Part shown: one piece after another, positions 3,485 to 62,001 of the stretch
Numbering within the stretch: the stretch's first letter is position 1
Layout: each line of letters opens with the position of its first letter
DNA from: Halichondria panicea
Lineage: Eukaryota; Porifera; Demospongiae; Suberitida; Halichondriidae
Reading direction: 5' to 3'
Assembly (NCBI RefSeq): GCF_963675165.1
Contig: NC_087390.1
Location: 5,383,250 to 5,447,249, forward strand
DNA: 64,000 nucleotides
The notes under the pieces: generated by a model
Database searches by the model: none
What the model was told of the DNA's origin: nothing
Seen by the model: the letters and a program-made list of their open reading frames with translations, nothing else
Position numbers and translations under genes: made by a program

Positions 3485-3797
3485 ATGGCTGCGCAACATT
3501 TCAAAACCTCAGCAGCCAAGGCTTTTCGTGAGCACTATGACAAACTGGTGAAATCCATCCAAGAAGCAGACCTGCCTGTGTTGGGAGCTCAGTTCTTTTG
3601 TCGGCAGATAATTTCCACAGAAACAATGGAAATGGTTGGAAATGTGTCCACCTCGAGAGCTCTCAGGGTGTCCAAGTTGATGCTAGCTGTGATGACTCAC
3701 CTGGACGTACATCCGGACAAGTTTGAGAGTGCCTTGGACGTCTTTAAAGAGGAGCTGGTGTATGCTGAAGTTGCTAGTATGATTTTATTGTCTTTTG
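3485..3797 (+). CDS. NLR gene A, exon 1: CARD-like domain
   Basis: First exon of a CARD-NACHT-LRR receptor of about 959 aa (joined 3485-3797 and 5954-8520; 2880 nt, in frame). It encodes a six-helix death-fold module of 104 aa starting MAAQHFKTSAAKAFREHYDK; the spacing of hydrophobic positions (LVKSIQ, VLGAQFF, ALRVSKLMLAVM, FESALDVF) fits a CARD better than a Death domain. The role expected from the family is homotypic recruitment of signalling partners. The reading frame runs into the donor TTTTG|GTAAGT and stops just beyond it, which is the reason to model splicing. Start chosen because the ATG is shared by all copies. CARD assignment is from pattern only. Confidence 0.75.
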
Positions 3798-8520: not shown

Positions 8521-8698
8521 AGTGTTCATAATGTAGCAGAAACTCATAATTTTATTATCACTAAACACTATTTATATTGATTTCTGGTAGTTACCATTTT
8601 TGTATGAATTATTTATGGGATACACTATTTTGTTTTAGTAACAGATGGTGTTAATCATTTATTTGTATATATATATACTGCATGTGCGTGCGCAGTGT

Positions 8699-9639
8699 GC
8701 AGCAAGGATATAGAGTGATTGGTGTGTGTGTTTGTGCAGCAGGGATATAGAGTGATTGGTGTGTGTGTTTGTGCAGCAGGGATATAGAGTGATTGGTGTG
8801 TGTATGTGTGCAGCAGGGATATAGAGTGATTGGTGTGTGTGTGTGTGCAGCAGGGATATAGAGTGATTGGTGTGTGTATGTGTGCAGCAGGGATATAGAG
8901 TGATTGGTGTGTGTGTGTGTGCAGCAGGGATATAGAGTGATTGGTGTGTGTATGTGTGCAGCAGGGATATAGAGTGATTGGTGTGTGTGTGTGTGTGTGT
9001 GCAGCAGGGATATAGAGTGCATGATTGGTGTGTGTGTGTGCGCAGCAGGGATATAGAGTGCATGATTGGTGTGTGTGTGTGCGCAGCAGGGATATAGAGT
9101 GCATGATTGGTGTGTGTGTGTGCGCAGCAGGGATATAGAGTGCATGATTGGTGTGTGTGTGTGCGCAGCAGGGATATAGAGTGCATGATTGGTGTGTGTG
9201 TGTGCGCAGCAGGGATATAGAGTGCATGATTGGTGTGTGTGTGTGCGCAGCAGGGATATAGAGTGCATGATTGGTGTGTGTGTGTGCGCAGCAGGGATAT
9301 AGAGTGCATGATTGGTGTGTGTGTGTGCGCAGCAGGGATATAGAGTGCATGGTTGGTGTGTGTGTGTGCGCAGCAGGGATATAGAGTGCATGGTTGGTGT
9401 GTGTGTGTGCGCAGCAGGGATATAGAGTGCATGGTTGGTGTGTGTGTGTGCGCAGCAGGGATATAGAGTGCATGATTGGTGTGTGTGTGTGTGCAGCAGG
9501 GATATATAGAGTGCATGATTGGTGTGTGTGTGTGTGCAGCAGGGATATAGAGTGCATGATTGGTGTGTGTGTTCAGCAGGGATATAGAGTGCATGATTGG
9601 TGTGTGTGTTCAGCAGGGATATAGAGTGCATGATTGGTG
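8699..9639. repeat. Minisatellite, about 24 units of 37-41 bp
   Basis: Tandem array with core 'CAGCAGGGATATAGAGTG' followed by (CA)TGATTGG and a GT-rich spacer. Units at the left are 37 bp ('GAGTGATTGG'); those from about 9004 are 39 bp ('GAGTGCATGATTGG', GCGCAG junction) and very homogeneous; the last ones carry 'GTTCAGCAGG'. All three minus-strand frames stay open through the array for about 300 codons because the unit has no antisense stop; these are repeat artefacts rather than genes. Confidence 0.95.
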
Positions 9640-9801
9640 ATTTTTGTATGAATTATTTATGGGATACACTTTTCTGTTTTAGTAACAATAGTTGTTAATG
9701 GTCTTAATCATTTATTTGTAGATATATATCTTTACCCTGCATGTGCGTGCGCAGTGCGCAGCAGGGATATAGAGTGCATGATTGGTGTGTGTATGTGTGC
9801 A
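9640..9801. repeat. Duplicated flank and single minisatellite unit
   Basis: Repeats the sequence before the array ('TTTTTGTATGAATTATTTAT' at both about 8600 and 9640, then 'GCATGTGCGTGCGCAG') followed by one unit. The array therefore sits in a roughly 1-kb tandem duplication. A more decayed copy of the same segment lies at about 25684-25790 after another CARD-type gene. Confidence 0.75.
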
Positions 9802-12702: not shown

Positions 12703-12815
12703 TTACCTTTCACAAATTGGTCATGTTGGAGCTCTAAGACTGATCAGTGCACTACAAGATGACAACAAGACTCTTGCAACACTTAGCCTCCCTGCAGAAT
12801 ATGAGCCAATTGAAA

Positions 12816-13570
12816 TACAGTAGACTCTCGCTATTCCGGCTCCCTGAAGTACGGCCACCTCGATATACCGGCCATTTGGCTTGGCACGGAATGCTAGCTA
12901 TATATTTACTGCACAAAACTCACCCTGAAGTACAGCCACTCGCTATTCCGTTTACTGGCCAGTGCTTGCTGTCCCAAACTAGACTGGCGGCGACAGCCGC
13001 CCGAGCACGTAGCGCGAGCGACTGGCAAACTGCCTATCAGTCACTTGTCTCAGCGGAAGTGTAATAGATCGTATGACACTACTAAACATGAATATCGTTA
13101 TAGATAATGTGGTTAAATTTTGCTATGAGATTCAGCTACTATGGATCCCCTGAAGTGTAAGTGCGGTCACAATTACAGGGCTAATATGACGTTGAGCAAT
13201 CTGATAGGCTGCAATGCTCGTTGCAGCTGAGACGAGTGACTAATAGACAGTTTGCCAGTCCCTCGCGCTACGCACGCGAGAGGCTGTCGCCGCCAGTCTA
13301 GTCCCAAACAGGGTTTTCACTGTAATTTTATACGTGTATTACGGCCGGATATGACGTTTTGGGTGTGGTTTAGCAAATAAAATTGAATTACACTTAAATG
13401 GAGAACACATTATCCTACATTATCCTCGAGACAAGAACCGCAAAAGTAGTCATTAGATTCGAGGTAAGGTCATTTTTAAGCCGCGGCTATTTCCTGAGCT
13501 GCAGCCACCTCGCTATTCTGGCCAAGCTGCATGGTCCCAAGGGTGACCGGATTAACGAGAGTCTACTGTA
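12816..13570 (+). mobile_element. Pogo-like MITE family P, copy 1 (with nested element)
   Basis: Ends TACAGTAGACTCTCGCTA and TTAACGAGAGTCTACTGTA are inverted repeats with TA at the borders. The internal sequence ('TACGGCCGGATATGACGTTT', 'GCCGCGGCTATTTCCTGA') is shared with copies at 29766-30740, 33798-33902 (partial, inverted) and 55897-56369. Non-coding. It carries a nested element at 12980-13300. Confidence 0.8.
12980..13300. mobile_element. Nested TIR element with 9-bp target duplication
   Basis: 321 bp, ends 'TAGACTGGCGGCGACAGCC' and '...GTCGCCGCCAGTCTA'; the inverted repeats extend about 53 bp with scattered mismatches. Flanked by exact 9-bp direct repeats GTCCCAAAC (12971-12979, 13301-13309). 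The sister MITE at 29766-30740 has a single GTCCCAAAC at the same place, i.e. the empty site. Long TIRs plus a 9-bp duplication suggest a Mutator-like element. Confidence 0.85.
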
Positions 13571-15103: not shown

Positions 15104-15197
15104 ATGGCTACTCAGGACAAGTTAGAGAGTGTCTCGGAAGTATTCAGAGAAGAGCTGGTACACACTAAATGTGCAACCATCAACACAACACCTGTTG
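15104..15197 (+). CDS. NLR gene B, exon 1 (short, CARD remnant)
   Basis: 94-nt exon encoding MATQDKLESVSEVFREELVH and on to PVG, donor GTTG|GTAAGT, phase 1. It aligns with both ends of the CARD exon (MATQD... and ...DKFESALDVFREELVY) but lacks the 219 nt (73 codons) between, so it is a CARD exon with its core deleted in frame. Joined to 15531-15851 and 16766-19326 it gives a 991-aa Death-NACHT-LRR protein (2976 nt, in frame). Genes D and F share this exon. Confidence 0.75.
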
Positions 15198-15530
15198 GTA
15201 AGTATAGCAACAAAGTATGCATCAAAGTTGTAGCTCTGTATTTTGTGGTGGTTTTACACTGTTAAAATATCCAAATCGCTGTAGATCAATAAAAATTAAT
15301 CATGGCATTGTTAGAGTTCATTCTATATTTGGCAAAGAGGATTATAAGTCACATGCTTGATTCAATTGTGTGTCGCTTTGTGTGCACATCAATAAGTGTG
15401 TGTGTGAGTTCAATCCTTACGCTCGAATACTTGTAAAATACCCTGGTCACACACCATAATAATAGTTCATTCATTCTTTCCTTGGCACGCAAGAGTGTGT
15501 CGGTAGTATTATATTGTTCTTGGTTTACAG

Positions 15531-15851
15531 CGACTGCAGCTCAGTTGAACCAAGAGTGCTCGAATGAAGCTCTTCGCCTCTTGTCTACCAAAATTGTTGG
15601 ATACCACAAATACAAGCACAAGCTGGGTCTGAGTAGTGCTGACATAGACGAAATTGATAATGATCCAAGAAGCTTTTACAGTACCCATAGCAAATTTCAC
15701 GCTGCTCTACTGAAGTGGAAGAGTAAAAGTATTGATTTAGATAATCCATCATATTCAACAGCTACTTACGGTCGATTAGTAGAAATTGCTAAAGAGGACA
15801 AGGACGGAGAGGCAATTAGGGAAATTCACAAGGCTTGTGTCAAGCATACAA
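15531..15851 (+). CDS. NLR gene B, exon 2: Death domain
   Basis: 321-nt exon with acceptor TTTACAG and donor ACAA|GTAAGT, phase 1 on both sides. It encodes a Death-domain-like module: ALRLLSTKIVGYHKYKHKLG, SSADIDEIDND, a conserved tryptophan in LLKWKSKS, then ATYGRLVEIAKEDKDGEAI. The LGLSxxDIDEI...LLxWK...RLVEI pattern is typical of Death domains; the module would recruit adaptors by Death-Death contacts. Because it is symmetric (1-1), it can be added or removed without changing the downstream frame. Confidence 0.85.
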
Positions 15852-16765
15852 GTAAGTTACAATAGTTCACAGCAGATATCTTTCCGTCCTAATCTTAGTA
15901 ATGTAGCATGTACATGCATGTACTAACTACATGCCGCACTCATAACTCAATTCCTGGCAAAAAGGTGGAAATACATACCCAAATTGCTCAACTACAAACC
16001 ATGACATTGTTAATTATGCATGATTTCTTTATTTGGCAAGAGTGTTTGAGGATTTAGTTTCAAAAGGAATGTGTGAGGGAGTGCATGTGCAGCAGCATTA
16101 CATGTATGTAACTATAGCTACATTCATAATTCAATTCTTGTATGCACGTATTGTAATCAGATACAATTTATACATGTAACCTTATATAGCTTATACAATG
16201 TACTTAGGGATTCTTTTACTAAATGAACCAAAACTCTTATATTCATAATGCTGTTGTTCACTGTAAGAATGTGTCGGGCGTTTCCTGACCTGAGGTACAC
16301 ACAGTGACATAATTATAGTATAGGTTCTAGGTAATTGTTCAACTGAGGCTATAAGCTATGTCAATTCAACTGAGACTACGTCAGTTCTAGGGTAGTACGG
16401 CAGTTTGCAGTTTGCTTTTGCAGTTCGAGACAATTCTTCGTTTTTGTAAAAGCTAAATTACTAGAAACAACTTTTCGCCATTGTGTTCGAATCTTGAATA
16501 ATACACACTATATACATTGGCCTCAATTCTTGATAATCAGGTCCCCATGCTCGTGGGCATGTAACTGTGTGATTAACAAACAATGGCAGTAATTAAGTAT
16601 TGCCAATAAATTGACTATTGAATGATAAAGGTCAACTATTTTATTAAAAATTGTCGCCAGTATCGCCGGTATATATGGATGCAACCAATTTGTGGGTGTA
16701 TGCATGCATGGAAAGTACATACGTTTAATTACCTAGTGTTTTACATTGAAACTTTGATCTAACAG
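15852..16765 (+). other. Intron 2 of NLR gene B
   Basis: 914-nt phase-1 intron. It shares the 'AGGTTCTAGGTAATTGTTCAA' block with introns of D and F; its 3' part (from about 16540) differs from theirs, which were replaced by CARD-type intron sequence. Confidence 0.6.
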
Positions 16766-19326
16766 ATAAGATTTCTGCTTACTCTTCAACCGTGATGGCA
16801 GCTGTACCCACATCAGCTATCGGAAAATACGCAGACTACCTGAAAAATGTGTACCTTCGATCAAAGCTCCCTCACAAAGGAAAATGGCCTCCTGCTCCCT
16901 GTAAGAAGATCATCAAGCTAGCTACCATTGAAATTGAAGATGATCGCTCACATTTAGCATTGTGTAAGCTAAATAGGTCCGAGTCGATTGATGAGTACAT
17001 GAAAAATAATAGGATGAATTCCATTTCAATGGAAGACCTTTTAACTGAAAAAGATGGCTCACTGCCGAAAGTCGTAATCATTCAAGGAGTCCCAGGAATA
17101 GGCAAGTCGACTTTTTCATGGAAGTTTTGTAGAAAGTGGGCCAAAGGGAAGATCTATCAGCAATATGATCTGGTTGTTTTGTTGCGCATGCGTGATACAA
17201 GAGTGAGAGAAGCAACCAAACTTAGCAATCTCTTCTTCTCAGAAGATGCCGACTTTTCGAATGAAGTAGCGAAAGCAGCCGTTTCTAATAGTGGAAAAGG
17301 CATTCTCCTTCTATTAGAAGGAATAGACGAGCTTCCTGCTTCTTGTTTAGCTGATGGCATGCCTCTTTCTAACTTGCTTCAAGGTGAATCCCTTCCCCTA
17401 GTTACCATCATAGTAACCAGTAGACCCTGGGCTGTGCAGACACTAGAAGAAAAATTCGAGGATCAGATATCTCGACAGGTAGAAATCTTGGGCTTCACAA
17501 GAGAAGACATCTTGAGGTACATTTCACATGCTTTCACTGAGGAGGAAAAGACAGAGTTCTTAGAGTACCTCCGCTCCCACCCTCAGCTGGAGTCCATCAT
17601 GCACATCCCACTGAATGCTGCCTTTGTTGTTCAGATCTACAAGCAATTTCGTCGTTCTCAACAAGCTATCCCTAGCACCTTGACCCAGCTCTACACAGCT
17701 CTTGTTGAGGGTCTCTTGCTCCGCTATATCAAGTCAGTTCCTGAGTTTGATAATCTAAAGATTATCAGTGTTTCAAGCTTACCAGAACCAGTACAAACAC
17801 ATTTCGATCAGCTTTGTCTACTAGCTTTCATGAGCTTCACCAAGTATACTGTTCAAGTCACATTCATCGATTCAGAAGCTGCTTTGTACGAGTGTTTTGA
17901 TTTCCTTGGTCTCATGCAGTCCTCAACTGAACTCACCATAAACACTGGTACCACTGTATCCCACAGTTTCCTCCATTTCACAATCCAGGAGTTCCTAGCA
18001 GCTTACCATCTCTCTAAACAGCCGTCGCAAGTGCAGGAGCTGTTTTTGGAAGTTCACAGCAAAGATCCTCAATTTTCAATGCTTATCACATTTCTGGTTG
18101 GACTGAACAGCAGCGTTCTGCATTGTATTAAACTGCCAGAGTCAAAACTTCAAGATCTGTCCACATTTCACTTACACTTGTTGTATGAAACACAATCCCC
18201 CAAGGATGTATGCAAGTTCTCAGAAAATATGACTTTTGTGAAATATTCTCCTGCCCTAACAAGTACATCACTTGACCTACATGCACTATCGTATTGTCTT
18301 TGCTCCAGTAAATGCCGTTGGTATTTAAGAATCAGTCTGCGAAACTTCACATCATTCTGTCGCATCCCCGATGAGTTTTACAAGGGGCAAATAAGAAAAC
18401 TAGAAATTTTTGATGTTTCTCGAAATAACCTTGAATTGTTTTTTTCTCTTCCCAAGCGTATATTTTCAGACATGTACAGCCTTGTAATTAGCTCTTGTGA
18501 ACCTATTGAATCTGTAGTTGGAGACATCTTAAGTGACGGCCAGTTAATGAACTTAAAACAGTTTTCTTTTCGGAATAAGAATTTTCAAGTATCTTGTGAT
18601 TTGAGCTTGATAATGGAAAGCCTGTTTGCATCTCACCCTAATCTTATTCACATAGGAATACGAAGTACTGTCATATCATTCTCTGGTATGGCTGGATTAT
18701 GCAAATACATGAGTTCTCACTCTGCTTCACCTGAGCTTACATTGTGTCTTCCACAAAACAGCATTGAAACTGAATCCCTTAATTTGCTGATTAGTACTGT
18801 TGCATTTTCAAAGATTCTTACTCATTTGGATATTTCTTTCAACCATCTATCAGTAGAAGAATTAGAAATGCTATCTGTTGCTCTTTCTGCAAATTTATCT
18901 TTGAAAACGTTAGGAATGGTCAAATGTTCAATCGGTGGTGAAGGAGCTGAATTATTATCCACTGGACTGGAGGAGAATCGAACTCTCCTCGGATTAGATC
19001 TTCGCCATAATCCCATCAATGTGAATGGAGCTGCTGCTCTGGCTTCAATGCTTACTGTGAACACTTCATTAGAAATACTTTATCTTTCAAACAACGAACA
19101 AATTGGTCATGTTGGAGCTCTAAGACTGATCAGTGCACTACAAGATGACAACAAGACTCTTGCAACACTTAGCCTCCCTGCTGAGTGTGAGCCTATTGAA
19201 TATGGATCGATCTTGATGGATAAAATACGAAAGAGTGGTCGCATAGAATTCATCAATAATACAAGTTCAGTTTTAAACACAATAGCACACGAGTTTACAT
19301 CATTTGACATATGGCCTTATAATTAG
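16766..19326 (+). CDS. NLR gene B, exon 3: NACHT-LRR
   Basis: Spliced in phase 1 after TCTAACAG; begins NKISAYSSTVMAAVPTSAIG, a start not shared with the other genes, which have SPKTAIG. Then NACHT with GVPGIGKST, LLLLEGIDELP (the Walker B copy with L before E), VTSRPWA, GFTREDILRYI, FLHFTIQEFLAAYHLS, the variable region, RI-type LRRs and tail FDIWPYN. Its 5' end and intron 3' end make it the most distinct Death-type copy, perhaps the ancestral arrangement. Followed 1.65 kb downstream by CARD gene C. Confidence 0.9.
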
Positions 19327-20972: not shown

Positions 20973-21285
20973 ATGGCTTCTAAAGACTTCAATACCTCAG
21001 CTGCTAAGGCTTTCCGTGAGCACTATGACAAACTAGTGAAATCCATCCAAGAAGCAGACCTGCCTGTGTTGGGAGCTCAGTTCTTTAGTCGACAGATAAT
21101 CTCCACGGAAACAATGGAAATGGTTGGAAATGTGTCCACCTCGAGAGCTGTCAGGGTGTCCAAGTTGATGCTAGCTGTGATGACTCACCTGGACGTACAT
21201 CCAGACAAGTTTGAGAGTGCCTTGGATGTCTTCAGAGAGGAGCTAGTTTATGCTGAATTCGCCAGTCTCATTGCATCGTCTGTTG
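20973..21285 (+). CDS. NLR gene C, exon 1: CARD-like domain
   Basis: Starts MASKDFNTSAAKAFREHYDK, ends SSVG at donor GTTG|GTAAGT, phase 1, 313 nt. Joined to 22516-25085 it gives a 960-aa protein (2883 nt). It differs from gene A's module mainly at the ends (SRQI for CRQI, AEFASLIASSVG for AEVASMILLSFG) and is nearly identical to gene E's. Confidence 0.75.
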
Positions 21286-25610: not shown

Positions 25611-25683
25611 ATTCTAGCTTCAAGAACTTCAAAACCTCAGCAGCCAAGGCTTTTCGTGAGCACTATAACAAACTAGTAAAATG
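25611..25683 (+). pseudogene. CARD exon fragment
   Basis: The stretch encoding FKTSAAKAFREHYNKLVK aligns with residues 6-23 of the CARD exons. The start codon region is altered and the match stops abruptly at 'AAAATG', where the sequence related to the minisatellite flank begins. Remains of another CARD-type gene downstream of gene C. Confidence 0.7.
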
Positions 25684-29275: not shown

Positions 29276-29765
29276 AGTAAATTATGCATGCTGATTTTCT
29301 CAATACAACATACACACACTGGCTTAACTGTACACCTCTTTGTCTGTACGTCAAGCAACAAAATAACTTTCAACATGCAAGCAACAATTAGATGTTGAGA
29401 TTGAATGTTAAAAGTAGCACAACAGGCCATTGCATGGCATTACCATAAAACACGAACACTTCTTGTAGGGAGAGGGAAGCCCAGGATCGGAAATAGCTAG
29501 CTGTCTTATTTATGTACACTACCTCCCACACATGCACGCACAAACTTAACACACAACTTGACGACCTAATGCTACACTCAAGTATAGAGCTAGGGACCAT
29601 GCAAATGGAATTTGAAATCGTTTTTTCTGCATGAGGCAGTATTTTTTATGCACATGCACCCCAAAATGTTTTTAAAATGGCAAGGTTATTGCAATTAATT
29701 AGTAGTAATTAAGGCCATCCAGTTATTCCTGAAACGTGTGCTTTGTGGCAAGATTGACTAACGTC

Positions 29766-30740
29766 TACAGTAGACTCTCGCTATTCCGGCTCTCTGAAAT
29801 GCGGCCACCTCGATATACCGGCCATTTTGTTTGGCACGGAATGCTAGCTATACGTTTTCTGCACAAAACTCGACCTGAAGTACGGCCACCTCGCTATTCC
29901 GTTTACCGGCCAGTGCTGTCTGTCCCAAACAAGGTTTTCAATGTAATTTTATACGTATATTACGGCCGGATATGACGTTTTGGGTGTGGTTTAACAAATA
30001 TTATACCACACTTACGTCACCACAAATTGATCTCATTGGTCAACAGCTGTAGGATATATAGAATATTAGCATACAGCCCCAGGCATGCACAGTTTTTCAA
30101 GTTGCTTTTCATTTGTTCAAGAAAGTAAGCAAAGAGAAAAGAGCCATGCTTGACGGTACTAAGACTCAAAGCGACGGCAGAAACACGGAAGGTGCTCTCC
30201 AATAAGATGGCTAAGCTTCCATGGGTCCATGGGCGCGGTTTAGATACATTTTATCCAAGAAGAGCTTGCAACTCCAGTAAGGGACGTCGAATGGTCAACG
30301 CTTGGACCAAGGAAACTCTTGAGCATCTGTAGGAGTCAACATGTTGCTCAACTAGCTCTTTGACGGCTGCAAAATCCGGCATAGTCTTGTTCTTTTTTGC
30401 AGTCTGCATCGCGATTGAATTGTTGCTAGGGGGAGGTCCTTTTATAGTGCTGCGGTCACGTGGTATAAGTCAGATATGCCACACCTACTCGGAGGATATG
30501 CACCCTATATATCCTCCTCTTAGGTGTGGTATATCCTATACAAATTGAATCACACTTAAATAGAGAACAGAATGATTCATTAATCCTACATTATCCTCGA
30601 GACAAGAACCGCAAAAGTAGTCATTAGATTTGAGGTAAAGTCGTTTTAAGCCGCGGCTATTTCCTGAGATGCAGCCACCTCGCTATTCCGGCCAAGCTGC
30701 ATGGTCCCAAGGGTGACCGGATTAACGAGAGTCTACTGTA
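29766..30740 (+). mobile_element. Pogo-like MITE family P, copy 2 (with nested insertion)
   Basis: Ends TACAGTAGACTCTCGCTA and AACGAGAGTCTACTGTA. Sits in intron 2 of the plexin-like gene. It retains the single GTCCCAAAC empty site of the element nested in copy 1, but has its own nested insertion (about 30002-30533). Confidence 0.8.
30002..30533. mobile_element. Nested insertion with TATACCACAC ends
   Basis: Sequence absent from MITE copies 1 and 3, bounded by TATACCACAC and GTGTGGTATA. About 530 bp with a 60-codon open frame (30150-30332) of no recognised family. Target duplication not clear. Confidence 0.55.
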
Positions 30741-34257: not shown

Positions 34258-34351
34258 ATGGCTACTCAGGACAAGTTAGAGAGTGTCTCAGAAGTATTCA
34301 AAGAAGAGCTGGTACACACTAAATGTGCAACCATCAACACAACACCTGTTG
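34258..34351 (+). CDS. NLR gene D, exon 1 (short, CARD remnant)
   Basis: 94 nt, MATQDKLESVSEVFKEELVH to PVG, donor GTTG|GTAAGT. Same deleted-CARD exon as in B and F. With 34742-35062 and 36715-39281 it makes a 993-aa protein (2982 nt, in frame). Confidence 0.75.
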
Positions 34352-34741: not shown

Positions 34742-35062
34742 CGACTGCAGCTCAGTTGAACCAAGAGTGCTCGAATGAAGCTCTTCGCCTGTTGTCTACC
34801 AAAATTGTTGGATACAACAAATACAAGCACAAGCTGGGCCTAAGTAGTGCTGACATAGACGAAATTGATAATGATCCGAGAAGCTTTTACAGTACCCATA
34901 GCAAATTTCACGCTGCTCTACTGAAGTGGAAGAGTAAAAGTATTGATTTAGATAATCCATCAAATTCAACGGCTACTTACGGTCGATTAGTAGACATTGC
35001 TAAAGAGGACAAGGACGGAGAGGCAATTAGAGAAATTCACAAGGCTTGTGATAAGCATACAA
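34742..35062 (+). CDS. NLR gene D, exon 2: Death domain
   Basis: 321 nt, phase 1-1. Differs from gene B's module by few residues (GYNKYKHK, NPSNSTATYGRLVDIAKED, KACDKHTS). Keeps the LGLSSADIDEIDND and LLKWKSKS motifs. The substitutions VD (for VE) and CD (for CV) are near the C-terminal helices. Confidence 0.85.
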
Positions 35063-36714
35063 GTAAGTTACAATAGTTCACAGCAGACATCATTAACCGT
35101 CCCAATCTTAGTAATCTAGCATGTACATGCATGTACTAACTACATGCCGCACTCATAACTCAATTCCTGTATGCTCTTATTGTAATCAGATACATGTAAC
35201 CTTATATAGTGTACTAGGGATTCTTTTACTAAACTAATGCTGTATTCACTCTAAGAATGTGTCGGGCGTTTCCTGACCTCTGTGTGTGCATATGTACCGT
35301 ACCCTCGCGAAAATAAGCCCATCTTGAATAAACGCCCATCCCCTCTTTTGCTTCGAAGTTCTTGCACGAGGGTATTTTCACTCGATTATAAGCCCACCCA
35401 GAATGAAGAGTTTTGAGCATGCGCAGTAGCTAAATGCCACATGTTGACTATTAATTTTAGTGAAGAAAGGAAGTTTTAGGTAGTAGCTAGTACGACTATA
35501 CTCCTTGCTGGACCAAGATCAGACATATAACTTTCTCTGTATGGCCCTTGAATATGTATATGCAGGGAACAAGTAGTCCTATATATGCAGAGGAAAGAAA
35601 ACACAAAGTCCAAGAAAGTTATCACACAGGCCAATTTTGCAGGTTACCTTGCCTTGGTTTCTGAAACAAAGTACCTGATAGCTGCTCTGTAGGAGTATGA
35701 CCTACCATCCTTTGGGAAGTTTCTGCAAGCAACAAATGGAGTCAAGAGTCCACTTCTTATGTTCATTCTCTTGTCATGTTTTAATCATACTCATGCATTA
35801 CATTGTTGTTGTCAATGAAATGTTCATACTATGTATTAAAAATTAATGATCATAATTATATAGAGCAAAGTGTAAACCTCGATTTGAGGCCGCGGGTGGG
35901 CGTATATTCGAATGAAAACTCGCCGTTCGCGATTAACGCCCAGTCCCCTAATAAGCCTAGACTTCTTGCAGAAAAGGGTGGGCGTATTTTCGCGAGGGTA
36001 CGGTATATGAATTCATTATGCACTAGCTGTGGCTGCTGAGTGAATATGGAATGTGTATTGGAATTATGTGATGGCCCTGAGGTACACACAGTGACATAAT
36101 TATAGTATAGGTTCTAGGTAATTGTTCAACTGAGGCTATAAGCTATGTCAATTCAACTGAGACTACATCAGTTCTAGGGTGGTACGGCAGTTTGCTTTTG
36201 CAGTTCGAGACAATTCTCTCCTTTTGTAAAGGCTAAATTACTATAAACAATTTTTCGCCATTGTGTTCGAATCTTGAATAGTACACACCCACTGGATGGA
36301 ACGGCAAAGCTCTATACACTAAACATCGGCCTCAATTCTTGACAATCAGTTCCCCATGCTCGTTGGCATGTAACTGTGTGATTGACAAACAATGGCAGTA
36401 ATTATTGTTAACTTACGCACTGATGGAACTCCATATATGGTACTGATCGCTATTTCACTTGTCAGTATTCTCAGTATTACAATTTTCTGTTTTCGTATAA
36501 TTACAATTGCAATTGATAAAAATGAGTAATTTTAAGAGATTTCAATAAGAATGTGTGTGCATGGGGTAGTTCCTTCTCGTTGTGTATGCTACAATGTATA
36601 GTCTCTGGTACATGGTATTGAGTTACATGTGAATTCACATAACTCTATTTATAGTGCCCTTTTCATGATCTGTTAAAATAGTATAGTACGTATAATACTG
36701 TGATTATACAACAG
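35063..36714 (+). other. Intron 2 of NLR gene D
   Basis: 1652 nt, phase 1. Contains the MITE at 35295-36005. From about 36530 its 3' end resembles CARD-type introns ('TTTCAATAAGAATGTGTG' as before genes A and G) rather than gene B's. Confidence 0.65.
35295..36005. mobile_element. MITE with TACCGTACCCTCGCGAAAAT ends
   Basis: 711 bp; left end TACCGTACCCTCGCGAAAAT, right end ATTTTCGCGAGGGTACGGTA, a perfect 20-bp inverted repeat, TA borders. Gene F's intron has the near-empty site ('GCATATGTATAATTATG' at about 50900). Pogo/mariner-like by its TA target; no transposase frame seen. Confidence 0.75.
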
Positions 36715-39281
36715 GTAACATTCCTACTGGCTCTCAACACTCCCTAACTGTGCTGACGGCCTCACCAAAAACAGCTATCGGAAAATACGCGGATTACCTG
36801 AAAAATGTGTACCTTCGATCAAAGCTCCCTCACAAAGGAAAATGGCCTCCTGCTCCCTGCAAGAAGATCATCAAGCTAGCTACCATTGAAATTGAAGATG
36901 ATCGCTCACATTTAGCATTGTGTAAGCTAAATAGATCCGAGTCGATTGATGAGTACATGCAAAACAATAGCATGAATCACATTTCAATGGAGGAGCTTTT
37001 AATTGAAAAAGACGACTCACTGCCGAAAGTCGTAATTGTTCAAGGAGTCCCAGGAATAGGCAAGTCAACTTTTGCATGGAAGTTTTGTAGAAAGTGGGCC
37101 AAAGGGAAGATCTATCAGCAGTATGATCTGGTTGTTTTGTTGCGCATGCGTGATACAAGAGTGAGAGAAGCAACCAAACTCAGCAATCTCTTCTTCTCAG
37201 AAGATGCCGACTTTTCGAATGAAGTAGCGAAAGCAGCCATTTCTAATAGTGGAAAAAGTACTCTCATTTTAATGGAAGGAATAGACGAGCTTCCTGCTTC
37301 TTGTTTAGCTGATGGTTGGCCTCTTTCTAACCTGCTTCAAGGTGAATTCCTTCCCCTAGTTACCATCATAGTAACCAGTAGACCCTGGGCTGTGCAGACA
37401 CTTGAGGAAAAATGTGGGGTTCAGATTTCTCGACAGGTGGAAATCTTGGGCTTCACAAGAGAAGACATCTTGAGGTACATTTCACATGCTTTCACTGAGG
37501 AGGAAAAGACAGAGTTCTTAGAGTACCTCCGCTCCCACCCTCAGCTGGAATCCATCATGCACATCCCACTGAATGCCGCTTTTGTTGTTCAGATCTACAA
37601 GCAATTTCATCGTTCTGAGCAAGCTATCCCTAGCACGTTGACCCAGCTCTACACAGCTCTTGTTGAGGGTCTCTTGCTTCGCTATATCAAGTTAAATCCC
37701 AATATCACGCATTCCCACATTGTCTATCTTAGTAACTTGCCAGAACCAATTAAATCTTATTTCCATCAACTTTGCCTACTATCTTTCATGAGCTTCACTA
37801 AGCTGACTGTTCAAGTCACATTCACCGATTCAGAAGCAGCTTTGTACGAGTGTTTTGATTTCCTGGGTCTCATGCAGTCCTCAACTGAACTCTCCATAAA
37901 TAGTGGCACCACTGTATCCCACAGCTTCCTCCATTTCACAATCCAGGAGTTCCTAGCAGCTTACCATCTCTCAAAACAGCCGTCCCAAATGCAGGAGCTG
38001 TTTTTGGAAGTTCACAGCAAAGATCCACAATTTTCAATGCTCATTACATTTCTGGTTGGATTGAACAGCAGCGTTCTGCATTGTATTAAACTGCCTGAGT
38101 CAGAATATCAAGATCTGTCCACATTTCACTTGCACTTGTTGTATGAAACACAATCCCCTAAGGACGTATGCAAGTTCTTAGGAAATATGACCGTTGTGGA
38201 ATATTATCCTGCCCTAACAAGTACATCACTTGACCTACATGCATTATCGTATTGCCTTTGCTCCAGTGAGTGTTATTGGTTTCTAAAAGTAAATCTGCGA
38301 AACTTTACATCACTCTTTCAAAACCCGGATGAGTCGTACACGGGGCAGATAAAAAGACTAGAAATTATTGATGCTTCTCGGAGTAACCTTCAATTGTTCT
38401 TTTCTCTTCCCAAGCGTCTCTTTTCAGACTTGTACAGACTTGTACTTAGATGTTGTGAACCTGTTGAATCTGTAGTTGGAGACATCTTAAGTGACGGACG
38501 GTTAATGAACTTGAAACAATTTTCTTTTCAGAATAAGACTCTTCAAGTGTCTTTTGATTTGAGCTTGATAATTGAAAGTCTGTGTACGTCTCATCCTAAT
38601 CTTGTTCACATAGGAATAGGAAGGACTGTCATCTCATCCTCTGATATGGCTGGATTATGCAAATACACCAGTTTACGCTCTCCGTCTGGCTCACCTGAGC
38701 TTACATTGTATCTTAGACGAAACATTGAAATTGAGTCCCTTAATTTGCTGATTAGTACTGTTGCATTTTCAAAGATTCTTACTCATTTGGATATTTCTCT
38801 CAACCATCTCTCAGTAGAAGAATTAGAAATGCTTTCTGTTGCTCTTTCTGCAAATTCATGTTTGAAAACTTTAGGTATGGATAATTGTTTAATCGGTGGT
38901 GAAGGAGCTGAATTGCTATCCACTGGACTGGAGAAGAATCGAACTCTCCTTGGATTGGATCTTCGCCGAAATGTCATCAATGTGAATGGAGCTGCTGCCC
39001 TGGCTTCAATGCTTACTGTGAACACTTCATTGAAAATGCTTTACCTTTCACACAACGAACACATTGGTCATGTTGGAGCTCTAAGACTGATTAGTGCACT
39101 ACAAGATGACAACAAGACTCTTGCAACACTTAGCCTCCCTGCAAAATGTGAGCCAATTGAATACGGATCGATCTCGATGAATAAAATACGAAAGAGTGGT
39201 CGCATAGAATTCATAAAGGGTTTAGTTTTAAACACAATAGCACACGAGTTCACATCATTAGACATATGGCCTTATAATTAG
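36715..39281 (+). CDS. NLR gene D, exon 3: NACHT-LRR
   Basis: Spliced after TATACAACAG; begins SNIPTGSQHSLTVLTASPKT (the S codon is split). NACHT motifs GVPGIGKST, LILMEGIDELP, VTSRPWA, FLHFTIQEFLAAYHLS. Distinctive segment after the NACHT: LNPNITHSHIVYLSNLPEPI replaces the SVPEFDNLKIISVSSLPEPV of the other genes. LRR loops also differ (LRRNIEIE, one residue shorter). Tail LDIWPYN. Followed 1.5 kb downstream by CARD gene E. Confidence 0.9.
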
Positions 39282-40763: not shown

Positions 40764-41076
40764 ATGGCTACTCAGGACTTCAATACCTCAGCAGCCAAGG
40801 CTTTCCGTGAGCACTATGACAAACTGGTGAAATCCATCCAAGAAGCAGACCTGCCTGTGCTGGGAGCTCAGTTCTTTAGTCGACAGATAATTTCCACGGA
40901 AACAATGGAAATGGTTGGAAATGTGTCCACCTCGAGAGCTGTCAGGGTGTCCAAGTTGATGCTAGCTGTGATGACTCACCTGGACGTACATCCAGACAAG
41001 TTTGAGAGTGCCTTGGATGTCCTCAGAGAGGAGCTAGTTTATGCTGAATTTGCCAGTCTCATTGCATCGTCTATTG
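40764..41076 (+). CDS. NLR gene E, exon 1: CARD-like domain
   Basis: 313 nt, MATQDFNTSAAKAFREHYDK to SSIG, donor ATTG|GTAAGT, phase 1. With 42164-44739 it makes a 962-aa protein (2889 nt). Nearly identical to gene C's exon; its MATQD start equals that of the Death-type exon 1. Confidence 0.75.
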
Positions 41077-44739: not shown

Positions 44740-45484
44740 TTTCATGCTGTATGTAATAGTGAACACTCGCACACACCATTCACATTGATTTTGTATTACA
44801 GTTTAATGATATTTACCACTTAGTCATTTATGGTGGCACGTATCATAACATTAATAGGATGCAAGGTTCGAAGTTGGTCCGGCATTGCATGGGAATAACG
44901 CAATCAAGTAGTTAAAGTGCGTAGCTGGTAATGTTATGCAGAACAGAAACGAAGATGAAATAAACATACAATCCATATAAAGCTATACTATTCTAGTTAA
45001 GGGCATGCATTCAAACGTATGCTGGAGTGTATACATGTATTGCACAGGACCCAGATTCATCGCCTCAGTTAGTCTAGAATCTAGAATCGTTATAGTCAAT
45101 CTATAGATAATTTTTTTCAACTGAATCTAAGCTAGTCAGTTCGTGGGTGTGCATGTAGCAGGAAATGAGCTTTAATTTCCCTTGTTAGCAATAGCTGCAT
45201 GAGATCTGTGGTTATGACAACTTTTTGTACAGTTGATGTTAGTCTACAAGGCTTGTGTCATGTATTTGTGCTAATCAAACTCTCTTGTCTAATTATTAGC
45301 TCACATAAGCATTGTATGAAATAGTTGTGTATCTACATTGTAGTATTGCAGTGTTTGGTGGCTTACCAGGACCTCATGAAAAGAGTGAAAAGAAGTATTC
45401 AGTTTGAATCTCGTGGAATTGAATGCGCATGCTGTTGTCTTTACGAGAACTCTAACCTATTTGGAGATTTCCCAAACCCAACTT
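44740..45484. repeat. Duplicated 5' flank after gene E
   Basis: No gene. Matches 25086-25600 and 54950-55500; the CARD exon expected at the end is missing and about 130 bp of unrelated sequence leads into an NLR tail fragment. Confidence 0.5.
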
Positions 45485-45917
45485 GAATGTTGCTCTTTCT
45501 GCTAATTCATCTTCAGAATGACCAACTATTCAATCGATGGTGAAGGAGCTGAATTACTATCCACTGGACTGGAGGAGAATCGAACTCTCCTCAGATTGGA
45601 TCTTCGCCATAATCTCATCAATATAGCTGCCCTGGCTTCAATGCTTACTGTGAACACTTTTAAAAATGCTTTACCTTTCACACAACGAAAAAATCGATTA
45701 TGTTGGAGCTCTAAGACTGATCAGTGCACTACAAGATGATAACAAGACTCTTGCAACACTTAGCCTCCCTGCAGAATGTGAGCCAATTGAATATGGATCA
45801 ATCTTGATGGATAGTATACGAAAGAGTGTTCGCATAGATTTCATCAACAAAATTAATTCAGTGAGCACAATAGCACATAACTTTACATCATTAGACATAA
45901 TATGGCTGAATATGTAG
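45485..45917 (+). pseudogene. NLR LRR-tail fragment
   Basis: Matches the last three LRRs and tail of the NLR exons (from VALSANSS). Broken by frame changes: the stretch with SIDGEGAELLSTGLEENRTL and the stretch with VGALRLISALQDDNKTLATL are in different frames, and the end reads LDIIWLNM in place of DIWPY. No NACHT part. Confidence 0.8.
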
Positions 45918-48419: not shown

Positions 48420-48640
48420 AAATTACCTTTCACACAACAAACAAATTGGTCTTGTGGGAGCTCTATAAGACCGATCAGTGCATTACAAGATGACAACAAG
48501 ACTCTTGCAACATTTCGCCTCCGTGCAGAATGTGAGCCAATTGAATATGGATCGCTCTAGTCTTGGTGGATAACATACGAAAGAGTGGACACATAGAATT
48601 CACATAGAATTTGTCAATAAATTAAGTTCAGTATCAAACA
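48420..48640 (+). pseudogene. NLR 3'-end fragment
   Basis: From the last LRR (YLSHNKQIGLVGAL-like) to the tail. Frame broken within 'GCTCTATAAGACCGATCAG' and 'TCGCTCTAGTCTTGG'; 'CACATAGAATTC' is duplicated. Paralogue of the fragment at 12703-13690, without its transposon. Confidence 0.75.
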
Positions 48641-49298: not shown

Positions 49299-49392
49299 AT
49301 GGCTACTCAGGACAAGTTAGAGAGTGCCTCGGAAGTATTCAGAGAAGAGCTGGTACACACTAAATGTGCAACCATCAACACAACACCTGTTG
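49299..49392 (+). CDS. NLR gene F, exon 1 (short, CARD remnant)
   Basis: 94 nt, MATQDKLESASEVFREELVH to PVG; retains SA (as in the CARD exon's ESALDVF) where B and D have SV. Donor GTTG|GTAAGT. With 49753-50073 and 51832-54404 it makes a 995-aa protein (2988 nt). Confidence 0.75.
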
Positions 49393-49752: not shown

Positions 49753-50073
49753 GGACTGCAGCTCAATTGAACCAAGAGTGCTCGAATGAAGCTCTTCGCC
49801 TGTTGTCTACCAAAATTGTGGGATACAACAAATACAAGCACAAGCTGGGCCTGAGTAGTGCTGACATAGACGAAATTGATAATGATCCAAGAAGCTTTTA
49901 CAGTACACATAGCAAATTTCACGCTGCTCTACTGAAGTGGAAGAGTAAAAGTATTGATTTAGACAATCCATCAAATTCAACGGCTACTTACGGTCGATTA
50001 GTAGAAATTGCTAAAGAGGACAAGGACGGAGAGGCAATTAGGGAAATTCACAAGGCTTGTGTCAAGCATACAA
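49753..50073 (+). CDS. NLR gene F, exon 2: Death domain
   Basis: 321 nt, phase 1-1. Starts GTAAQLNQECSNEALRLLST (G rather than A at the split codon). Otherwise nearly the same as genes B and D with LGLSSADIDEIDND, LLKWKSKS and ATYGRLVEIAKED. Confidence 0.85.
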
Positions 50074-51831
50074 GTAAGTTACAATAGTTCATAGCAGACA
50101 TCATTAACCGTCCCAATCTTAGTAATGTAGCATGTATACATGCATGTACTAACTACATGCCGCACTCATAACTCAATTCTTGTATGCACGTATTGTAATC
50201 AGATACAATTTATACATGTAACCTTATATAGCTTATACAATGTGCTTAGGGATTCTTTTACTAAAGGAACCAGAACTCTTATAGTGCTGTTGTTCACTGT
50301 AAGAATGTGTTGGGAGTTTCCTGACCTCTGTGTGTGTGCATGTGTGAATTCAATTATACATATTATGCATGGTCTGTGGCTGCTGAGTGAATATGGGTAC
50401 AAAGTGTATTGAAATTGTACAGTGCCCTGCATGAGATACACACAATGAGGTTCTACCTGATGCAGCCAGACTTGAACTTTTGGCATCGATCGTTTTTATG
50501 GTCAATCATCTTGTAGGCAATTTAACTGAGGCTACGCTATATGTCAATTCAACTGAGATTACGTCAGTTCGAGGGTACGGCAGTTATATAGCTTTTGCAG
50601 TTCAAGACAATTCGTTTTTGTTGCTAAAGACAATCTCAAAATTCTAGCTCAAATTACAGGAAATTATTATTTTTCGCCATTGTTCAATTCTTGAATAGTA
50701 TGTAAAAATGCACGCTCACAATAATTATGAAACGGCGACATCAAAGGTTAGCTTTACATTGATCAATCTTGACAATTATTGACCTTATATAGCTTATACA
50801 ATGTACTTAGGGATTCTTTTACTAAAGGAACCAGAACTCTTATTCATAATGCTGTTGTTCACTGTAAGAATGTGTCGGGCGTTTCCTGACCTCTGTGTGT
50901 GCATATGTATAATTATGAATTCATTATGCATGGTCTGTGACTGCTGAGTGAATATGGAATGTGCATTCAAATTATACGGTGGCCCTGAGGTACACACAGT
51001 GACATATAGTATAGGTTCTAGGTAATTGTTCAACTGAGGCTATAAGCTATGTCAATTCAACTGAGTTCTAGGGTGGGTACGGCAGTTTGCTTTTGCAGTT
51101 CGACACAATTCTTCGTTTTTGTAAAGGCTAAATTACTAGAAACAACTTTTCACCATTGTGTTCGAATCTTGAATAATACACATCTTGAATAATACACATC
51201 AGCCTCAATTCTTGACAATCAGTTCATCGTCTGTTGGTAAGTGACTGGACATTTTAATAGTGAAAGATTTTGTGCACAAGAGATTAGTTGATTTTGAGGA
51301 TGCATTAAAATCTTAGAGCTTATAATTAAAGTTGCGCGAGATCTTTTTATTTGTTAGTGAGGTGTTTAATCCTAACTTTTGTGTGGTATCGCCGCATGAC
51401 ATATGGGAAATGTGAATTCTGTTCATGTTCTGCGATTGCTGAGTAAATAGTTAGTTTGCATTTGATGTGTGCAACGAGGCTTTGGTCACAATAAAAGTGG
51501 AAATACCCTAATTGCTGTAGGTCAGCCACAAACCGTGACATTGTTATGATTCATTCCATACTTGGTAATAGTGTGAGGAGTTGGTTTCAAAAAGAATGTG
51601 TAAGTGCATTTGTGCATGGCAGTGGCTTAGCCAAGGGGTGACACCAGCTTCCCATATTGAGTGTTCATGAAAGCCTTGATAATATGCTATTGAGTTACAT
51701 ATGCATGTGTGAATACAACTGTGTGCTCATACTATAATAGCCTCACCTCATACCTTAGTCAATATAATAATTATAGTGTGCATAGCTAAAACAATGTTCA
51801 TCACACTTTCATACTATCATTTTAACAACAG
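50074..51831 (+). other. Chimeric intron 2 of NLR gene F
   Basis: 1758 nt. Death-type sequence to about 51222, then CARD-type intron. The junction keeps the last bases of a CARD exon and its donor ('TTCATCGTCTGTTGGTAAGT'). An internal tandem duplication places two copies of the segment 'ACCTTATATAGCTTATACAA' (50220 and 50781). Confidence 0.8.
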
Positions 51832-54404
51832 GTAACATTCCTACTGACTCTCAACACTCCTCAACTGTGCTGACGGCCTCACCAAAAACAGCTATTGGTA
51901 AATACGCTGACTACCTGAAAAAAGTCTACCTTCGATCGAAGCTCCCCGTCAAAGGAAAATGGCCTCCTGCTCCCTGTAAGAAGATCATCAAACTAGCTAC
52001 TATTGAAATTGAAGAGGATCGCTCACATTTAGTATTGTGTAAGCTAAATAGGTCCGAGTCGATTGATGAGTACATGCAAAACAATAGCATGAATCACATT
52101 TCAATGGAGGAGCTTTTAACTGAAAAAGACGGCTCATTGTCAAAAACTGTAATTGTTCAAGGGGTCCCAGGAATAGGCAAGTCGACTTTTGCATGGAAAT
52201 GTTGTAGAAAGTGGGCCAAAGGGAAAATCTATCAGCAGTATGATCTGGTTGTTTTGTTGCGCATGCGTGATACAAGAGTGAGAGAAGCAACCAAACTTAG
52301 CAATCTCTTCTTTTCAGAAAATGCCGACTTTTCAAATGAAGTAGCAATGCAAGCAGTTTCTAGTGATGGAAAACGCATTCTCCTTCTAATGGAAGGCATA
52401 GACGAGCTTCCAGCTTCTTGTTTAGCTGATGGCATGCCACTTTCTAACTTGCTTCAAGGGGAATCACTTCCCCTAGTTACCATCATAGTAACCAGTAGAC
52501 CATGGGCTGTGCAGACACTCGAAGAAAAATGTGGGGATCAGATTTCTCGACAGGTGGAAATCTTGGGCTTCATGAGAGAAGACATCTTGAGATACGTTTC
52601 ACACGCTTTCAGTGAGGAGAAAAAGACAGAGTTCTTAGAGTACCTCCGCTCCCACCCTCAGCTGGAGTCCATCATGCACATCCCACTCAATGCCGCCTTT
52701 GTTGTCCAGATCTACAAGCAATTTCATCGTTCTCAGCAAGCTATCCCTAGTACCTTGACCCAGCTCTATATAGCTCTTGTTGAGGGTCTCTTGCTCCGCT
52801 ATATCAAGTTACTTCCTGAATTTAGTAATCTCAAGGTTATCAGTGTTTCAAGCTTGCCGGAACCAGTACTAGCCCATTTCCATCAACTTTGCCTATTAGC
52901 TTTCATGAGCTTCACCAAGCTTACTGTTCAAGTCACGTTCACCGATTCAGAAGCTGCTTTGTACGAGTGTTTTGATTTCCTTGGTCTCATGCAGTCCTCA
53001 ACTGAACTCACCATAAACACTAGTACCACTGTATCCCACAGCTTCCTCCATTTCACAATACAGGAGTTCCTAGCAGCTTACCATCTTTCAAAACAGCCGT
53101 CCCAAGTGCAGGAGCTGTTTTTGGAAGTTCACAGCAAAGATCCTCAATTTTCAATGCTCATTACATTTCTGGTTGGATTGAACAGCAGCGTTCTGCATTG
53201 TATTAAACTGCCAGAGTCAGAAATTCAAGATCTGTCCACATTTCACTTGCACTTGCTGTATGAAACACAATCCCCCAAGGATGTATGCAAGTTCTTAGGA
53301 AATAAGACCGTGAAGTATTCTCCTGCCCTAACAAGTACATCACTTGACCTACATGCATTATGGTATTGTCTTTGCTCCAGCAATTGTCGTTGGTATTTAA
53401 GAATCAGTTTGCGAAATTTCTCATCATTCTTTTGCAACCCCAATGAGTCTTACAAGGGACACATAAGAAGACTGGTAATTTATGATGCCTCCGTGAATAA
53501 CCTTCAATTATTCTTTTCTCTTCCCAAACACCTCTTTTCAGACTTGTATAGAATTGCAATTATAGAATGTGAACCTTTTGGTTCTGTAATTGAAGACATC
53601 TTAAGTAATGGCCGATTAACAAACTTGAAACAATTTTCTTTTCAAAGTAAGAGTTTACAAGTATCTTGTAATATAAGCTTGATAATGGAAAGTCTGTTTG
53701 CTTCTCACCCTAAACTTGTTCACATAGGAATAGGAAGTACTGTCATCTCATCCACTGATATGTTAGCATTATGCAAATACATGAGTTCACGCTCTCAGTC
53801 TGGCTCACCTGAGCTTACACTGGATCTTATACAAAACAGTATTGACAGCGAGTCCCTTCGTTTGTTTATTAGTACAGTGGCCTTTTCGAATATTCTTACT
53901 CATTTGGATATTTCTCTCAACCATCTTTCAATTGAAGAATTAGAATTGCTTTCTGTTGCTCTTTCTGCAAATTCATCTTTGAAAACGTTAGGTATGGATA
54001 ATTGTTTAATCGATGGTGAAGGAGCTGAATTACTATCTACTGGACTGGAGGAGAATCGAACTCTCCTCGGATTGGATCTTCGCCGAAATCCCATCAATAT
54101 GAATGGAGCTGCTGCTCTGGCTTCAATGCTTACTGTGAACACTTCATTACAAATACTTTATCTTTCACACAACAAACAAATTGGTCATGTTGGAGCTCTA
54201 AGACTGATCAGTGCACTACAAGATGACAACAAGACTCTTGCAACACTTCGCCTCCCTGCAGAATGTGAGCCATTTGAATATGGATCGATCTTGATGGATA
54301 ATATACGAAAGAGTGGTCGCATAGAATTCGTTGATAAAACAAGTTCAGTTCGAAATACAATAGCACATAAGTTTACATCATCAGACATATGGCCTTATAA
54401 TTAG
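51832..54404 (+). CDS. NLR gene F, exon 3: NACHT-LRR
   Basis: Begins SNIPTDSQHSSTVLTASPKT. NACHT motifs GVPGIGKST, LLLMEGIDELP, VTSRPWA, FLHFTIQEFLAAYHLS. Residue changes specific to this copy: FAWKCCRKW (C for F), GFMREDILRYVSHAFSEEKK. The LRR region is the most diverged of the intact copies (GSVIEDILSNGRLTNLKQFS, STDMLALCKYMS, LIQNSIDSESLRLFIS, LSIEELELLS). Tail SSDIWPYN. Upstream ATG absent (ATCATTTTAACAACAG), which supports the spliced start in all copies. AATAAA at 54537. Confidence 0.9.
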
Positions 54405-55508: not shown

Positions 55509-55827
55509 ATGGCTACTCAGGAGTTTAAAACCTCAGCAGCCAGGGCTTTCCGTGAGCACTATGACAAACTGCATGGTGAAATCCATCCAAGAAGCAGATC
55601 TGCCTGTGTTGGGAGCTCAGTTCTTTAGTCAACAGTTAATCTCCATGGAAACAATGGAAATGGTTGGAAATGTGTCCACCTCAAGAGCTCTCGGAGTGTC
55701 CAAGTTTTGATGCTAGCTGTGATGACTCACCTGAACGTGCATCCGGACAAGTTTGAGAGTGCCTTGGACGTCTTCAGAGAAGAGCTGGTGTATGCTGAAG
55801 TTGTTAGCATGATTTCGTTGTCTTTTG
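55509..55827 (+). pseudogene. NLR gene G, exon 1: broken CARD
   Basis: Starts MATQEFKTSAARAFREHYDK, then a 4-bp insertion (GCAT in AAACTGCATGGTGAAA) shifts the frame into a stop near 55618. A second insertion of 2 bp (CCAAGTTTTGATG) restores the original frame, so exon length is 319 (313+6). Splice donor TTTTG|GTAAGT intact. Without correction the protein ends at about 37 residues. Confidence 0.8.
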
Positions 55828-61688: not shown

Positions 61689-62001
61689 ATGGCTACTCAA
61701 GACTTCAAGACCACAGCAGCCAAGGCTTTCCTTGAGCACTATGACAAACTGGTGGACTCCATCCAAGAAGCAGACCTGCCTGTGTTGGGAGCTCGATTTT
61801 TTTGTCGACAGATAATTTCCAGAGAAACAATGGAAATGGTTGGAAATGTGTCCACCTTGAGAGCTCTCAGGGTGTCCAAGTTGATGTTAACTGTCATGGC
61901 TCACCTGGACGTACATCCGGACAAGTTTGAGAGTGCCTTGGACGTCTTCAGAGAGGAGCTGGTGTATACTGAAGTTGCTAGCATGATTTCATTGTCTTTT
62001 G
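61689..62001 (+). CDS. NLR gene H, exon 1: CARD-like domain
   Basis: 313 nt, MATQDFKTTAAKAFLEHYDK to SFG, donor TTTTG|GTAAGT, phase 1. Start taken at 61689 by comparison with the other exons, although the frame is open from 61650. Resembles gene A's module (CRQI, EVASMISLSFG). Its NACHT exon is not in the window; in gene A the distance is 2156 nt, so it would lie just past 64000. Confidence 0.75.

Follow-up and report, generated by a model that had tools for sequence, protein, structure and literature searches.

The window analysed here is a stretch of 64,000 nucleotides from Halichondria panicea (G000:C14:5383250-5447249 of a 131-Mb assembly in 39 contigs). It lies on a tandem array of twelve NACHT-LRR genes, A to L, with a span of 100.7 kb; gene H starts inside the window and genes I to L lie beyond it. 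The NACHT domain (Pfam PF05729, E = 2.1e-24 in B and 1.8e-24 in A) and the C-terminal leucine-rich repeats (PF13516, E = 4.5e-10 in B and 3e-6 in A) identify the products as NLR-type. Eight of the genes (A, C, E, G, H, I, J, and L) are CARD-type genes and four (B, D, F, and K) are Death genes.

All exons given here are on the plus strand. Full CARD-type first exons are found at 3485-3797 (gene A, 313 nt), 20973-21285 (gene C), 40764-41076 (gene E), and 61689-62001 (gene H), and a damaged one with small insertions at 55509-55826 (gene G). Gene B is composed of a 94-nt first exon (15104-15197, MATQDKLESVSEVFREELVHTKCATINTTPV) ending in a phase-1 donor, which we regard as a gutted CARD-type exon, a Death exon (15531-15851), and a NACHT-LRR exon (16766-19326). 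The corresponding three exons are located at 34258-34351, 34742-35062, and 36715-39281 in gene D and at 49299-49392, 49753-50073, and 51832-54404 in gene F, and the 94-nt first exon of gene K lies beyond the window at G000:C14:5468656. A preliminary description of this DNA had placed the short exons of B, D, and F correctly, starting at 15104, 34258, and 49299.

Splicing in silico of the three exons of the Death genes gives open reading frames in all four (991 aa in B, 993 in D, 995 in F, and 992 in K), and the CARD-type genes A, C, E, H, J, and L give products of 956 to 962 aa. Gene G is broken; gene I has no acceptor under the rule of our script and its NACHT frame is interrupted after 576 codons. 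Frames and splice sites in B, D, F, and K fit together, such that the N-terminal signaling domain is predicted to be on the same transcript as NACHT-LRR.

Several other features were seen between the genes. An orphan fragment of a CARD-type exon lies downstream of gene C (25622-25682), with 20 residues at 85% identity and 55 bp at 94.5% identity to the exon of gene A. Fragments of the 3′ part of NACHT-LRR exons, such as unequal exchange might leave, occur at 1392-1711, 12704-12814, 45392-45905, and 48462-48616. Just 3′ of gene A, a long repetitive stretch on the minus strand (8651-9652, THTPIMHSISLLR-like) is open in all three minus-strand frames, and the reading frames 12744-13064 and 29733-29975 have YSRLSLFRL.E.RPPRYTGH..WHGMLAI in common, probably as part of a dispersed repeat.

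First exons of the CARD-type and Death genes

The domain encoded by the full-length first exon, called a CARD in the preliminary description, is best named "CARD-type", and the CARD label itself is to be taken as weak. A profile built from the 11 undamaged exons of the family (gene G and the pseudogene L001, described below, were left out) matches a profile of Pfam-positive CARDs of the same genome over its full length with a score of 18.8 (E = 0.0013), compared with 5.9 or less for 20 shuffles and 1.6 against Death domains; for these comparisons 15 sequences were taken from the 56 CARD matches found in the genome and 15 from the 48 Death matches. The probability of the match is 7.4% and the Pfam CARD family is touched by one of the 11 members, at E = 0.11. 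An unrelated Pfam family is touched by three of the 11, at E = 0.066 or worse, and a PDB profile search with the CARD-type exons returned nothing up to E = 5. The AlphaFold2 model made from four sequences is all-helical and too poor for use (pLDDT = 52.5), and its Foldseek matches, all with E > 1, were not used. The last helix of this low-confidence model (residues 77-103) covers the part retained in the short exon.

A close comparison of the four short exons with the CARD-type exons of A, C, E, H, I, J, and L supports the proposal, already made for B, D, and F in the preliminary description, that the 94-nt exon which opens these genes and K is a CARD-type exon minus 219 nt, in frame. For the 3′ 79 nt, 219 is the best ungapped offset in all 28 pairs, with 51 to 58 identities as compared with 28 to 33 at the second-best offset. 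Gene G, with its small insertions, was included in an array scan only, in which the 3′ 79 nt of the F copy were slid along one strand of the 100.7-kb array. All eight CARD-type exons are recovered there with 52 to 58 identities, seven of them at offset 219 and the damaged G at 225, and the best place on that strand outside the CARD-type exons reaches 38 of 79. At the other end, the 5′ 15 nt of the short exons agree with H, I, J, and L at 14 positions, with C at 12, and with A at 10. Gene E (40764-40778) is the sole one of the seven undamaged CARD-type exons tested in which all 15 are the same.

These numbers bear on the possibility that the short exon is an unrelated first exon resembling the CARD-type exons by chance, which we regard as very improbable. 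Such an origin would agree with intron 1 of the Death genes, which shows no convincing likeness to CARD-gene introns beyond ~12 nt under plain-shuffle controls; the best comparison is that of K with C, equaled by one of 200 shuffles. It is rejected on the gap between 52 to 58 identities and the next-best 38 along the strand scanned, on the single offset found in seven undamaged exons, and on the near-identical 5′ end in five CARD-type exons. The leader upstream of the ATG was compared as well, and six of the 32 Death-CARD pairs score high, namely those of B, D, and K with H and J, whose scores were reached in 0 to 4 of 1000 shuffles. The likeness between K and H is carried by the blocks TTAATCAAACT and TATAATACAAGTA. 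The leader of F matches that of no CARD gene in the same comparison.

Searching the assembly with short-exon DNA, which could miss diverged copies, gave six matches: four are the full-length exons of B, D, F, and K, and the other two are partial and lie inside CARD-type exons. The short exons are 98% to 100% identical to the B copy. As for the join, said in the preliminary description to fall at a short shared sequence, similar stretches are indeed present at both ends of the missing segment. At the 5′ side, E reads TCAGGAC, the exons of H, I, J, and L read TCAAGAC, and G reads TCAGGAG, with A and C differing; the 3′ stretch is TCCGGAC in A, G, H, J, and L, TCCAGAC in C and E, and TCCGGAA in I. 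The join sequences fit a deletion between short similar stretches, although the combination of TCAGGAC at the 5′ side and TCCGGAC at the 3′ side is found in none of the present-day CARD-type exons of the array.

Because the four short exons have one join and are so nearly identical to the B copy, the gutting is most simply explained as one event, which disagrees with the suggestion that gutting is a recurring route of switching; independent repeated gutting was set aside on account of the join common to all four copies. The end of the short exon is strongly diverged, so the gutting was probably not recent, or else the remnant changed fast. It looks like one old event common to the four genes.

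The Death exon and its relatives

In each of the four Death genes the short exon is followed by a Death exon of 321 nt in phase 1-1, as the preliminary description stated for B, D, and F, flanked by AG and GTAAGT and devoid of in-frame Met; the three-exon reading frames are open throughout. With a single sequence, Pfam PF00531 is found at E = 9.1e-4 and 19.7 bits, compared with a cut-off of 22.6. The profile of the Death exon family identifies the domain with the Death domain: its match to a set of 15 Pfam-positive Death domains from this genome has a probability of 95.6% (E = 4.3e-9), and its score against CARDs is 5.5. The AlphaFold2 model from three sequences was too poor for use (pLDDT = 50.1), and the Foldseek matches, all with E > 1, were not used.

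The Death genes could also be plain NACHT-LRR receptors with transcripts that start further 3′ or skip exons, leaving the Death exon untranslated. We hold this to be improbable, considering that frame, phases, and splice signals are kept in all four Death genes and that dN is lower than dS in the six comparisons of the B exon that gave values (with D, F, K, and the loci L005, L007, and L008), barely so for K by one method (0.034 and 0.040). Eight comparisons had been tried, and those with L001 and L006 gave no value.

A protein search of the assembly with the Death exon gave 131 matches up to E = 1. Five of these are just upstream of members of the NACHT family on the same strand, namely B, D, F, K, and L001. 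A sixth place near NACHT (C14:4415572), which is weak at 40% identity and lies on the other strand past the 3′ end of the gene at L003, was not counted in the family. Proximity was taken as within 8 kb, with 32 of the 131 Death places compared by script with 50 of the 89 NACHT places and the others by eye, the 89 being those scored among 267 candidates.

Nine other Death loci (L005 to L013) were read. Their DNA likeness to the Death exon of B ends no more than 5 to 17 bases from the exon on either side, and AG and GT are present at the matching positions in five of the nine (L005, L008, L009, L011, and L012), with L006, L007, L010, and L013 differing at one end. Phase 1-1 in all four Death genes, together with relatives in other gene families, is the pattern of symmetric class 1-1 exon shuffling as read from sequence. 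In several of the nine loci an AG ~21 nt upstream keeps the phase, and the exon may start further upstream there than in the NLR genes.

The context of these nine loci, the set for which it was read as distinct from the 18 further Death exons of the tree below, is Roc-COR-like in most cases. COR-A was found under the Pfam cut-off in L007 and L013, and relatives of the GTPase/COR region of L013 occur in L005, L006, L007, L008, and L012, which makes six of the nine loci with L013 itself. The motif DxGGQP, which we take to be the Roc GTPase motif, is present in six loci (L005 to L009 and L013). A phmmer search with the COR-region protein returned nothing up to E = 1.

The Death exon tree was built from 33 of the 131 matches, of which 15 came from the window and the loci read and 18 were added, and it was rooted on six distant exons. 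In it, B, D, F, K, and L001 group as a single clade nested among the other exons (DNA 97/89, protein 85/73), with L001 branching outside B, D, F, and K (DNA 98/90). By this placement, the Death exon of the five groups among exons from Roc-COR-like GTPase loci, and the simplest reading would be one capture of the Death exon into this NLR lineage. Contig G000:C1 contains a large Death-exon family, with exon pairs a few hundred bases apart (e.g., C1:49416 and C1:50187). In B, D, and K, the ~105 nt that follow the Death exon resemble the initial 300 nt of the C and E introns more closely than any of 200 plain shuffles, and in K they also beat all 200 shuffles against A. This weak likeness to the C and E introns might mark the insertion site.

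The pseudogene L001 (C14:3243000-3252500) has the order CARD-type exon, Death exon, NACHT exon. Its CARD-type exon is of full length with frame breaks, its NACHT exon also contains frame breaks, and its Death exon is open and 13 residues short. As judged from this arrangement, a full-length CARD-type exon and a Death exon have stood in one gene. Capture of the Death exon probably came before gutting, since both exons occur in L001, whose Death exon is the sister of the B, D, F, and K group. The pseudogene is no proof of the ancestor of these four genes, because 5′ ends recombine in the family, and the CARD-type exon of L001 could have been acquired by later recombination. In an opposite order, gutting would have come first and left a short leader exon, the Death exon would have been captured later, and recombination would have supplied L001 with its CARD-type exon. 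Recombination between the 5′ ends of CARD-type and Death-type genes does take place, as the introns of L and I are partly like that of B, and this would allow for such an order; we nevertheless consider it unlikely in view of the two exons in L001, the branching of its Death exon outside the other four, and the fewer steps needed if capture came first.

Intron 2 and the NACHT-LRR halves

A close examination of intron 2 reveals where the Death genes cease to resemble each other. From the 5′ end to ~100 nt past the Death exon, all four are alike, and D, F, and K have further intron 2 pieces in common with each other and with L. In gene B the part at 15956-16765 is closest to the CARD gene L, which gives the best match in 10 of the 11 windows from 15944 onward (D does so in one), and before ~15956 the best matches listed are other Death genes. 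In gene D the switch from Death-gene/L-like to J-like sequence occurs at 36404-36537. Intron 2 of gene F contains the end of a CARD-type exon at 51222-51236, with the last 12 nt identical to C and the donor GTAAGT following at 51237, and from there to 51776 the intron is C/E-like (57 of the first 60 nt identical to C and 56 to E). By its sequence this scar is what remains of a CARD gene within a Death gene. Gene K is L-like at the 3′ end of intron 2. In turn, the CARD genes L and I have intron stretches in common with B (97.6% over 336 bp and 96% over 153 bp, respectively).

The NACHT-LRR exons themselves are mosaic along their length. That of B is closest to J in seven of 13 windows of 200 columns and, in the remaining ones, to K, A, F, or L; that of D is 98% like J in the first 200 columns and mixed later; that of F is closest to C/E in the first 400 columns and again mixed later. 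In the NACHT tree, B pairs with the CARD gene J (100/98), and K pairs with L in FastTree (0.994), a pairing drawn open in the IQ-TREE tree. The Death genes require three changes on this tree, at least two of them forced by starred branches. A single Death clade is rejected (0 of 200 bootstrap trees, and p-AU = 6.87e-6 for the best constrained tree). Eight of the 13 inner branches are open and two are starred, and clustering of the Death label does not exceed that of shuffled labels (a value as low in 142 of 500 shuffles).

The pattern is better explained if switching spread by recombination in intron 2, which would have put the Death module in front of L-like, J-like, and C/E-like receptor halves. 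Given the unclustered Death label, the majority of open inner branches, and the mosaic exons, the direction may be read in two ways: the Death module may have moved, or the NACHT half may have been converted, and the same mix would result either way. The second reading leads to a rival history with one switch only, in which B, D, F, and K were duplicated from one Death NLR and had their 3′ intron and NACHT overwritten by conversion from CARD neighbors. It overlaps with the exchange step of the history that we prefer, with the same outcome and the opposite direction. The mosaic NACHT exons are in its favor, as are the many pairs of CARD exons of the array that align little past the exon, which is what conversion tracts would leave. 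On the other side, the switch points in intron 2 differ among B, D, and F, and that of F falls inside a former CARD exon; we rate this history as a possible though clearly less probable one.

Proposed history and related systems

Our preferred explanation, which we consider likely, is that B, D, F, and K are Death-NACHT-LRR receptors of NLR type in which the remnant of a CARD-type exon starts the Death domain, and that they originated in three steps. First, a symmetric Death exon in phase 1-1, similar to those of the Roc-COR-like GTPase genes of this genome, would have entered intron 1 of a CARD-type NLR, giving a CARD, Death, and NACHT arrangement as in the pseudogene L001. One in-frame deletion of 219 nt, with its ends in short similar stretches, would then have removed the CARD core and left the ATG, the phase-1 donor, the last helix predicted by the low-confidence model, and probably the leader. 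Retention of the remnant is possibly due to the captured Death exon having no start codon in its own frame, a simple reason that is plausible, not demonstrated. Finally, crossover or conversion in intron 2 would have linked the start exon and Death exon, as one module, to various NACHT-LRR halves. The preliminary description saw here a CARD receptor turned into a Death receptor with NACHT-LRR left untouched; the remnant exon, the in-frame loss, and the in-frame Death exon agree with it, but as a whole it is too simple, given the single gutting, the order suggested by L001, and the different NACHT halves probably joined through intron 2. Judging from domain type only, the receptors would have changed their partners from CARD-binding to Death-binding adaptors.

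Sponge genes of both architectures, NLRC (CARD-NACHT-LRR) and NLRD (DEATH-NACHT-LRR), are described in a survey of Dysidea avara (PMC12909245), which cites Yuen et al. for 15 NLRC of Amphimedon queenslandica within a clade holding NLRX and NLRD. As here, two receptor architectures are present in one genome, and in A. queenslandica both are in one clade; the words exon, shuffling, and tandem are absent from the main text of that survey. In the zebrafish NLR-B30.2 family (PMC4852459), NACHT is on one large exon and other domains are on single exons, N-terminal repeats have been swapped between groups by exon shuffling, and paralogues have undergone gene conversion. The units swapped there are N-terminal peptide repeats, whereas the present array has CARD-type exons alternating with Death exons, along with a gutted start exon and the scar of a CARD exon. 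Death, DED, and other N-terminal domains have been grafted between sibling genes of lophotrochozoan RIG-I-like receptors by exon gain or loss, exonization, and intraexonic insertion or deletion (PMC8998645). These are RLR and not NLR, and no gutted first exon reused as a start exon was found in the text of that article at hand. Fungal NLRs, which occur in clusters, combine varied N-terminal effector domains with shared nucleotide-binding domains (PMC12258605); the domains differ from those in this array, and we found no exon-phase mechanism in the portion of that source available. Exon shuffling in the ROCO genes of brown algae is named in the title of another article (PMC11378527).

The kind of process is therefore already known, from N-terminal exon shuffling and gene conversion in zebrafish, N-terminal grafting in lophotrochozoans, and varied N-terminal domains in fungi. 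Among titles and abstract openings, we found no gutted signaling exon that is reused as a start exon and accompanied by a relative with both domains and by a recombinant bearing a scar, although this does not prove that none has been published.

Partner changes of innate receptors are mostly inferred from finished domain tables. Here, several steps appear within one genome: the exon family that is the likely source, a pseudogene with both domains, a gutting in frame that probably happened once, and recombinants, of which one is scarred. A broader view, for and against which we find ourselves evenly divided, is that the signaling and sensing ends of these NLRs are inherited as separate modules: a Death exon derived from Roc-COR genes and started by a gutted CARD exon would move as a module via the phase-1 intron, and the same sensor lineage would occur with either domain, possibly as a standing polymorphism within the species. 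Partner switching of this kind becomes testable through haplotype comparison and cDNA, and the gutted start piece in front of several sensor halves suggests how receptors may change their signaling partner.
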